Source: Shimia litoralis (GTDB taxonomy: Bacteria; Pseudomonadota; Alphaproteobacteria; Rhodobacterales; Rhodobacteraceae). Taken from it: a stretch of 64,000 nucleotides of DNA. The position numbers and the translations under genes were made by a program. This document shows, piece by piece, positions 32,401 through 35,291 of this stretch. The notes below the pieces were generated by a model. It did not search any database. It was not told the origin of the DNA and was given only the letters and a program-made list of their open reading frames with translations. Within the stretch, counting starts at the first letter, position 1. Each line of letters begins with the position of its first letter. The stretch is from contig NZ_SULI01000006.1 of the NCBI RefSeq assembly GCF_005518135.1, positions 62,001-126,000 of the forward strand. The letters are read 5' to 3'.

Positions 32401-33174
32401 CTAAAGAGCGGTCCAGCCGCCGTCCACGCTGATGGTGGTTCCGGTGATCTGTGCCGCCGCATCCGAACACAAGAATACGGTTGTGCCGCCCAATTGCTCG
32501 ACCGTTGCGAATTCTTTCGAGGGTTGGCGGGTCAACATGACGTTTTTCACCACATCTTCGCGGCTCATATTGTATTCGTGCATTGTGTCGGGGATTTGGG
32601 CCTCGACCAGCGGCGTCAACACATATCCGGGGCAAATCGCGTTACACGTGATGGGCTCTTGAGCCGTTTCAAGCGCAACCGTTTTGGACATGCCGACAAC
32701 GCCATGCTTGGCGGCAATATAGGCGGCCTTGAAGGGCGATGCCGTCAGACCATGCGCCGATGCAATATTCACAATGCGACCCCAGCCCCGCTCGCGCATC
32801 CCTGGCAAGGCTGCCGCCATTGTGTGAAACGCTGAATTCATATTGATCGCGATGATCGCATCCCATTTTTCGACGGGGAACTCGTCGATCGGGGCAACGT
32901 GCTGAATCCCAGCGTTGTTCACCAAAATGTCACAGCCGCCAGCCTTGGAGATCAGGGCGCGGCATTCATCCCCCTTGGACATGTCGGCTTGGATGTATTT
33001 TGCATCCACATCAAACTCTTGGGCGATCGAGGCCGCCAGCGCATGATCATCATCGCTATCGGTGAAAGAGTTAAGCACCACATTCGCGCCAGAGCGCGCC
33101 AGTTCGCGGGCGATTCCCAGACCGATTCCCGAATTTGAGCCAGTGATGATGGCCGTTTTGCCTGACAACGTCAT
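32401..33174 (-). CDS. bdhA: 3-hydroxybutyrate dehydrogenase (SDR family)
   Basis: The protein has 257 residues. It oxidises D-3-hydroxybutyrate to acetoacetate with NAD+, a step in polyhydroxybutyrate or ketone-body use. The SDR cofactor motif is TGSNSGIGLGIA, the structural motif is NNAG, and the catalytic residues are Ser in NIASAHG and Tyr-Lys in AAYIAAKHG. The BDH-specific region GIQHVAPIDEFPVEKWD and the C-terminal QPSKEFATVEQLGGTTVFL make this assignment much stronger than for a general SDR. A 22-base inverted repeat lies just upstream and may be its operator. Confidence 0.93.
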   Translation of the reverse strand: MTLSGKTAIITGSNSGIGLGIARELARSGANVVLNSFTDSDDDHALAASIAQEFDVDAKYIQADMSKGDECRALISKAGGCDILVNNAGIQHVAPIDEFPVEKWDAIIAINMNSAFHTMAAALPGMRERGWGRIVNIASAHGLTASPFKAAYIAAKHGVVGMSKTVALETAQEPITCNAICPGYVLTPLVEAQIPDTMHEYNMSREDVVKNVMLTRQPSKEFATVEQLGGTTVFLCSDAAAQITGTTISVDGGWTAL

Positions 33175-33197
33175 TGAAGATCCCTTCGTCCTAAGTT

Positions 33198-33219
33198 TGC
33201 AGCATCATATCATGCTGCA
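33198..33219. promoter_or_regulatory. Inverted repeat upstream of bdhA, possible operator
   Basis: TGCAGCAT and ATGCTGCA are perfect 8-bp arms around CATATC, centred about 34 bases before the bdhA start. The TGC/GCA-rich sequence is reminiscent of sites bound by regulators of polyhydroxybutyrate or acyl-CoA metabolism, but the orientation differs from the CTGC-Nx-GCAG sites of PhaR, so the factor is not identified. A 12-bp palindrome TCTTACGTAAGA lies further upstream at 33256-33267. Confidence 0.4.
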
Positions 33220-33276
33220 CTCGCAAAATAAGGGGGTTTTGGTCGCACCACGTATTCTTACGTAAGACAAAACGCC

Positions 33277-33305
33277 AAAAAAAAACGCCCGCGCAAGGCG
33301 GGCGT
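33277..33305 (-). terminator. Strong minus-strand terminator with no coding gene upstream
   Basis: On the minus strand ACGCCCGC/GCGGGCGT (33285-33292 with 33298-33305) pair through 8 bp around a 5-base loop and are followed by nine T (33285-33277). It lies upstream of bdhA, and the next gene at higher coordinates is on the plus strand. It therefore ends an unannotated transcript or acts in a bdhA leader. Confidence 0.8.
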
Positions 33306-33353
33306 AAAGTTATTGAGGCAGGTTTCATACAGGCAAGAAACCTATCGAGCAGT
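33277..33353 (-). ncRNA. Candidate small RNA of about 77 nt
   Basis: Read on the minus strand, a promoter-like pair TTGGAC (33389-33384) and TATAAA (33365-33360) spaced by 18 bases is followed by a predicted start near 33353. A first hairpin comes next (AGGTTTC at 33343-33337 in complement, arms 33320-33326 and 33337-33343, 10-base loop), then a short single-stranded linker, then the strong terminator at 33277-33305. This is the typical plan of a trans-acting bacterial sRNA. I do not recognise a known family. It could instead be a bdhA leader that terminates early. Confidence 0.5.
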
Positions 33354-33467
33354 AAGTTCTTTATAAGCAATCCCACGCCGAGAGTCCAAGCTAAAAGTTT
33401 GATAAGGCCGCGAACCCGATGTACCTTTGTGTCAACAAAAACAAGGCAGAGCAGGATTGTTCCGATA

Positions 33468-35291
33468 ATGCGACCAGTATGTTTCCGGCAATTTTGGCGG
33501 CCAATCGTCATTGCAGGCCTAATTTCTATGGGCACATTTGCGCAGTCCGACCCAAGCCATGGCATAGCTATGTATGGGCCCCCTGCTCTTCCACATGATT
33601 TTGTGTCCCTCCCCTATGCCAACCCCAACGCCCCCAAAGGTGGACGGCTGGTGACCGGCAACTCTGGTGGATTCGATTCGCTTAATCCGTTTTTGCGAAA
33701 AGGCACCGTCTCTTGGCAGCTTAGATTCTTTACCCACGAATCCCTGATGGGGCGAAATTGGGACGAACCGTTCTCACTTTATGGCCTTTTGGCCGAATCG
33801 GTTGAGACAGATCCAGACCGCACATGGGTCGAATTTGTGTTGCGCCCCGAGGCGAAATTTTCAGATGGCACCCCCGTGACGGTCCAAGATGTGATCTGGT
33901 CTTTTGAAACATTGGGCACCAAAGGCCACCCGAGGTACCTAGGGCTGTGGTCAAAAATCCAAAGCATTCAGGCAACGGGGCCGCGCAGCGTGCGCATCAC
34001 GTTCAACACACCGGACCGCGAATTGGCCCTGATCGCCGGATTGCGCCCGATTTTACAAAAAGCCCAGTGGCAGGACGTCGAATTCTCGGATGCCACACTT
34101 GCCGATATACCGATCGGATCAGCTCCCTATCAGGTATCGTCGTTTGAACCGGGCCGTCACGTTACGCTGACCCGCAATGAGGATTACTGGGGCAAGAACT
34201 TGCCGCTTCGGCGCGGTGTTGGCAACTTTGACGAGGTCCGCATCGACTTTTATGGCGATGCAGACGTGATGTTCGAAGCCTTCAAAGCCGGCGAGCTGGA
34301 CTTTGTGCGCGAATTTAACGCCGAAAACTGGGCCAGCCGCTATGGTTTTCCGGCCGTCGTTGCTGGGGATGTCGTGCAATCCGAAATTCCACATCAAAAA
34401 CCATCCGGGATGACCGGCTTGGTCATGAATTCCAGACGCGCCCCGTTTGATGACATTCGGGTGCGCGATGCGATGCTGCATGCGTTTAACTTTGAATTCA
34501 TCAATGACACCATGACTGGTGGACGACAGCCGCGCATTTCATCGTATTTCTCTGGGTCATATCTGGCAATGCAAGATGGCCCCGCAAAGGGTTCGGTCGC
34601 TGACATTCTAGAGCCGTATGTCGCAGATATCCCCACAGAGGCCCTCACCGGATACACACTGCCTGCCTCAAACGGAACTGCGCGCAATCGCAAAAACCTG
34701 CGCAAAGCGATGGCGTTGCTAACCGACGCCGGTTGGGTTGTGGAAAATGGCCAGCTCCAAGACCAGAATGGTGTGCCCTTTGCCTTTGAAATTTTGCTGC
34801 GCCAAGGCGACAGTCAGAACAAAGCCATCATAGACATATATCGTAAGTCTTTGGAAAAGCTTGGCATTCAAGTAACGGTCGCCGCAGTAGACAATGCCCA
34901 ATATACCCAGCGCATTGCAGGTTTTGATTTTGACATGACCGACTATCGGCGTGCGTTGTCCCTGAGTCCAGGTAACGAACAATCCCTGTATTGGGGCAGC
35001 GAAAGCGCCGCACAAGATGGTTCACGCAACGTGATGGGCATACAATCCCCTGCTGTGGACGCTCTTATCCAAGCATTGCTGACATCTACATCTCAAGACC
35101 AGTTCCAATCGACCGCGCGGGCGCTGGATCGGGTTTTGACAACGGGTCGATACGTCATCCCGATCTGGACCTATTCGGTTGGCCGTATTGCACATATCAA
35201 ACAGCTTAAGTATCCATCGAATTTGCCGATATACGGCGACGGAGTCGAATGGATGCCCGCCGTGTGGTGGTACGAGGAGACAGATAAATGA
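33468..35291 (+). CDS. Peptide ABC transporter substrate-binding protein (YejA-like)
   Basis: The protein has 607 residues from ATG 33468 (AGGA 11 bases upstream; a longer open frame begins at 33399 but would precede the signal peptide). A signal peptide of about 25 residues ends near FAQS. The mature start HGIAMYGPPALPHDFVSLPYANPNAPKGG, shown here as YGPPALPHDFVSLPYANPN, is typical of YejA-like SBP_bac_5 proteins that bind oligopeptides or microcin C. Other family marks are EWMPAVWWYEE-type C-terminus and FKAGELDFVREFNAENWAS. No permease or ATPase gene follows, so it is an orphan binding protein here. Its stop overlaps a tiny lipoprotein start as ATGA. Confidence 0.9.
   Translation: MRPVCFRQFWRPIVIAGLISMGTFAQSDPSHGIAMYGPPALPHDFVSLPYANPNAPKGGRLVTGNSGGFDSLNPFLRKGTVSWQLRFFTHESLMGRNWDEPFSLYGLLAESVETDPDRTWVEFVLRPEAKFSDGTPVTVQDVIWSFETLGTKGHPRYLGLWSKIQSIQATGPRSVRITFNTPDRELALIAGLRPILQKAQWQDVEFSDATLADIPIGSAPYQVSSFEPGRHVTLTRNEDYWGKNLPLRRGVGNFDEVRIDFYGDADVMFEAFKAGELDFVREFNAENWASRYGFPAVVAGDVVQSEIPHQKPSGMTGLVMNSRRAPFDDIRVRDAMLHAFNFEFINDTMTGGRQPRISSYFSGSYLAMQDGPAKGSVADILEPYVADIPTEALTGYTLPASNGTARNRKNLRKAMALLTDAGWVVENGQLQDQNGVPFAFEILLRQGDSQNKAIIDIYRKSLEKLGIQVTVAAVDNAQYTQRIAGFDFDMTDYRRALSLSPGNEQSLYWGSESAAQDGSRNVMGIQSPAVDALIQALLTSTSQDQFQSTARALDRVLTTGRYVIPIWTYSVGRIAHIKQLKYPSNLPIYGDGVEWMPAVWWYEETDK

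Follow-up and report, generated by a model that had tools for sequence, protein, structure and literature searches.

The question raised by this locus is whether the intergenic DNA between a 3-hydroxybutyrate dehydrogenase gene (bdhA) and a divergent gene for a solute-binding protein (SBP) encodes a small RNA (sRNA) and, if so, which RNA it is and what it acts on. The window, i.e. the whole stretch of 64,000 nucleotides of Shimia litoralis DNA that was analysed, showed at this place a promoter pair, a 5' hairpin, a linker and a terminator on the minus strand, positioned to the base as the initial annotation had placed them. The features of the locus are as follows.

33277..33353, minus strand: sRNA gene of 77 nt, very probably an StsR ortholog, with +1 predicted at A33353 and the nine T ending at 33277
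33319..33344, minus strand: 5' hairpin with an 8-bp stem and the 10-nt loop TTGCCTGTAT, from the calculated fold; invariant in 25 of 25 aligned rows
33318..33334, minus strand: pairing segment GCCTGTATGAAACCTGC, i.e. loop plus 3' arm, complementary to site A of the dcw leader
33346..33352, minus strand: sRNA 5' end CTGCTCG, complementary to the leader motif CGAGCAG (candidate site B, weak evidence)
33277..33305, minus strand: Rho-independent terminator with nine T, from the terminator scan; compensatory changes at 5 of 8 pairs
33360..33365, minus strand: -10 element TATAAA; TATA kept in nearly all of 138 aligned loci
33384..33390, minus strand: -35 element CTTGGAC, RpoH-like, with a CTTG core present in 122 of 138 loci
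33386..33401, minus strand: upstream block CAAACTTTTAGCTTGG, the shared edge of the divergent promoters; CAAACTTTT in 100 of 138 loci
32401..33174, minus strand: bdhA, 3-hydroxybutyrate dehydrogenase (TIGR01963, 365 bits), downstream; adjoining the sRNA in 95 of 126 loci
33468..35291, plus strand: family-5 (peptide-type) SBP, divergent, with ATG 33468 taken as the start by inspection; found in 126 of 133 loci

Inspection of the sequence showed that the 5' hairpin reads AGGTTTC-N10-GAAACCT, with the loop GCCTGTAT, and is followed by an open linker. The terminator detected by the scan consists of ACGCCCGC-CTTGC-GCGGGCGT, forming an 8-bp stem, and the nine T (33285-33277). The RNA measures 77 nt when the whole T run is counted and about 72 nt without the last Ts. 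Its calculated fold energy was -24.4 kcal/mol, compared with -14.4 +/- 2.6 kcal/mol in shuffled sequences (z -3.9). Since a strict sigma-70 scan of the region did not list the sRNA promoter, and promoter-like and terminator-like sites were no more numerous in the 3-kb region than in its shuffles, promoter and terminator alone prove little. A 124-aa open reading frame on the minus strand (33191-33565) overlaps the sRNA, and no model was matched when it was searched against NCBIfam.

Conservation was then the main evidence. The sRNA occurred in all 244 Rhodobacterales genomes sampled, belonging to 101 genera, with rarely more than one match per genome. When 41 genomes were searched at the DNA level, all 25 members of the same family (25 genera) carried it, and the 16 from other families within the class gave no match; phage records gave no match to the sRNA. 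Carriers named by a pattern scan include Ruegeria pomeroyi, Leisingera, Sulfitobacter, Paracoccus, Roseobacter, Gemmobacter and Neomegalonema. The first 40 nt were nearly invariant in the 138 aligned loci, part of this block having been fixed by the search pattern in the named loci; yet ACTGCTCGAT before the fixed part and GCCTCA after it lie outside the pattern and were without variation, and the 25 family genomes, retrieved without any pattern, displayed the same near-invariant 5' block. The predicted +1 coincides exactly with the start of this block. Examination of the two hairpins in relatives, a check proposed in the initial annotation, was positive for the terminator stem, where five of eight pairs had changed on both sides and no shuffle scored as high for covariation; the first hairpin, being invariant, gives no covariation signal. 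On the basis of its conservation the candidate is a real gene, and this conservation together with the fold bears out the original proposal of a stand-alone sRNA on the minus strand, about 77 nt long and equipped with a promoter and a terminator of its own.

In the promoter, TTGGAC (33389-33384) and TATAAA (33365-33360) are separated by an 18-nt spacer, and CTTGG and TATAA are kept among relatives at -35 and -10. Among the 122 loci with an upstream CTTG, 118 carry it 36-37 nt before +1. RpoHI/RpoHII promoters are described by -35 TTG and -12 TAT (PMC10673084), a motif matched by the CTTG-N-TATAA of the sRNA. Judged from its elements, the promoter fits the RpoH type; it may be a housekeeping promoter. 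The CAAACTTTTAGCTTGG block, which lies between the two divergent promoters of the sRNA and SBP, is retained in most genera. It could be a site for a regulator, with AARCT-N3-AGYTT as an imperfect palindrome, or else two back-to-back -35 elements.

The adjacent genes were considered both as host and as target of the RNA. The sRNA lies on the bdhA strand, 103 nt upstream of this gene, an arrangement that would suit a cis-acting leader or attenuator of bdhA; this explanation is very unlikely, as a strong terminator separates the two, the conserved sRNA segment is complementary to the dcw leader and not to bdhA, and bdhA is adjacent in only 95 of 126 loci, the sRNA core being still invariant in the 31 from which it is missing. 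With regard to targets, the longest run between the sRNA and the bdhA start was 9 nt including G-U pairs, equalled or beaten in 111 of 600 random 90-nt stretches, while the SBP start gave a longest run of merely 7. The suggestion that bdhA or the peptide-binding protein is the target thus found no complementarity beyond chance. The SBP 5' UTR (33430-33467, AACAAGGCAGAGCAGGATTGTT) is recognisably similar in many genera, hinting that SBP might be under post-transcriptional control by something other than this sRNA.

When the sRNA was compared with Rfam at gathering and relaxed thresholds, no family reached the cut-off. The mmgR/suhB family (alpha-r8, RF00519), an alphaproteobacterial sRNA of similar size with a 5' hairpin and a terminator, was weighed as a possible identity, which would make the RNA a regulator of PHB storage. 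A weak full-length match to RF00519 (22.3 bits) and the adjacency of bdhA speak for this assignment, but the score is below the 41-bit gathering cut-off and in line with other terminator-driven matches. Moreover, five relatives (G001, G004, G008, G015 and G017) have, in addition to this sRNA, a true mmgR scoring 60-68 bits at a separate locus, the mmgR core GTTTCCTCCCTAGACTTGG differs from the sRNA core, and the mmgR core GTTTCCTCCCT...ACTTGG is absent from the sRNA. The mmgR identity was rejected because of the separate co-occurring loci and the different core, and its probability is practically negligible.

A closer correspondence was provided by StsR (formerly RSs0827) of Rhodobacter sphaeroides, a stress-induced RNA described as an orphan, which base-pairs with the leader of the genes for cell division and retards growth. 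StsR is 72 nt long, RpoHI/RpoHII-controlled and Hfq-bound, and pairs with the sRNA UpsM and the dcw 5' UTR, the pairing exposing an RNase E site for cleavage (PMC8307010, PMC11354728, PMC8625941). UpsM ends at a terminator within the 268-nt mraZ leader, a feature described as special to Rhodobacteraceae, and the UpsM fragment measured in R. sphaeroides is 130 nt long (PMC5089854). On account of this literature the mraZ leaders of the relatives were examined.

These leaders contain GCAGGTTTCATACAGGC, the exact complement of the sRNA loop and 3' arm. Site A, as we call it, occurred in 21 of 22 readable dcw leaders, that of S. litoralis being counted among them, and was not found in the leader stretch read in G008; three further relatives stand outside the count, two with leaders off the contig end and one without a mraZ match. 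The segment facing the loop, ATACAGGC, is invariant in all 21 leaders with site A and is usually extended to GCAGGTTTCATACAGGC. In the search of 41 genomes for the 17-mer, with one mismatch allowed, the S. litoralis genome gave just two sites: the sRNA gene itself and C23:143648-143664, the latter outside the window and upstream of mraZ by about 200 nt. The reversed-pattern control gave no matches. The sRNA and the leader form 16 contiguous pairs in S. litoralis and 16-17 overall. Co-folding assigned the pairing of sRNA nt 19-35 with site A a probability of 0.88-0.94 in 19 leaders and of 0.61-0.65 in two. Unrestricted RNAduplex energies of the sRNA against the leader were mostly within about 2 sd of shuffles, G+C-rich terminators dominating the values. 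The S. litoralis leader resembles UpsM and has a stem like that of a terminator about 55 nt ahead of mraZ; counting 130 nt back from this terminator places the predicted UpsM start about 7 nt beyond the pairing site, which is no more than suggestive. The complementarity supports the dcw (mraZ) leader, and not the adjacent genes, as the putative target. The trans-acting build proposed in the initial annotation is upheld by this predicted pairing and by the Hfq-type architecture, the adjacent genes as its target being unsupported.

The sRNA is thus very probably the StsR ortholog, a stand-alone sRNA of the Rhodobacterales, an assignment drawn from size, promoter type and target, with StsR known to us by description. 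The gene found here is stand-alone with its own promoter and terminator, of about 72 nt in the description and 77 nt with all T in S. litoralis; its promoter elements fit the RpoH type, and the pairing predicted for it, as for StsR, with the dcw/UpsM leader follows from perfect sequence complementarity. The two RNAs belong to different genera, and the likeness of the S. litoralis RNA, with its core ACTGCTCGATAGGTTTCTTGCCTGTATGAAACCTGCC, to StsR is one of described features and not of letter-by-letter sequence. A literature search by sRNA sequence and by RSP_0823-0831 yielded nothing mapping the neighbours of IGR_0827 to the locus. The reported StsR target rpoE mRNA is bound 10 nt after the start codon; the best ChrR-like match in the S. 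litoralis genome has no adjacent rpoE, which left no rpoE site for comparison. Since the assignment to StsR is supported by size, promoter type and target rather than sequence, the RNA might instead be a separate unnamed Rhodobacterales sRNA that pairs with the dcw leader; this is improbable, since StsR is an orphan of 72 nt under RpoH control that pairs with exactly this leader, and two such sRNAs in one order would be a coincidence.

A second contact with the leader was suggested by the motif CGAGCAG, the complement of the invariant sRNA 5' end; 18 of 21 leaders have it at a distance of 41-52 nt past site A, in the correct antiparallel order. Co-folding favoured pairing at this site B in just one genome, probably owing to the stable leader stem that contains the motif. 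The longer complement of the 5' end, CCTATCGAGCAGT, had exact matches only at the sRNA genes, and its one-mismatch matches were about as common as in the reversed control. It is quite possible, if short of probable, that, in Rhodobacterales, the dcw leader and StsR together form an ancestral division switch common to the whole order, with bipartite pairing at sites A and B; such a target would account for the lack of change over nearly 40 nt of the sRNA.

By analogy with R. sphaeroides, an RpoH-type sigma factor would transcribe the sRNA in stationary phase or under stress. The loop would contact ATACAGGC in the long 5' leader of the dcw operon and in the leader-derived UpsM, and pairing would then zip through the 3' arm, opening the hairpin of the sRNA itself. 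RNase E, together with Hfq, would cleave the altered leader, so that the levels of UpsM and dcw mRNA fall and the cells divide more slowly. The gene, its structure and conservation, the promoter elements and the conserved pairing site were observed here, while sigma factor control, Hfq binding, UpsM/dcw pairing and RNase E cleavage presumably hold in S. litoralis as in R. sphaeroides.

The StsR system itself was already known; the order-wide conservation of the gene, its position and its target pairing is new, and links a conserved sRNA that Rfam lacks with a mechanism already in the literature. These data suggest that the stress-to-division link described in R. sphaeroides may operate across a large, ecologically important order, and the conserved pairing site makes this link directly testable in laboratory strains of Ruegeria, Paracoccus and Rhodobacter.

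Finally, several minor observations were collected. Loop variants occur in two relatives, TAGCCTGTAT in L052 and TTGCCTGTTT in L055, the dcw leader of the latter, in which a compensatory change might show, running off the contig. Some genomes (e.g. G137, G143, G161 and G176) have two sRNA matches, the second being perhaps the dcw leader, perhaps an additional copy. Two further TTCATACAGGC sites in the S. litoralis genome lie opposite long ORFs, in antisense orientation; these ORFs resemble comEC and livF by inspection. In Paracoccus denitrificans, intergenic 134 is an expressed 84-nt sRNA, widely conserved in Rhodobacteraceae, with a context common to a putative R. sphaeroides sRNA (PMC5107571); it is similar to the present RNA in size, and their identity is an unproved lead. 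An mmgR-like sRNA candidate with a TTTCCTCCCT core (33 bits, under the Rfam cut-off) is located at G000 C56:24701-24783 (L037), on the contig that contains the window and about 37 kb ahead of it.
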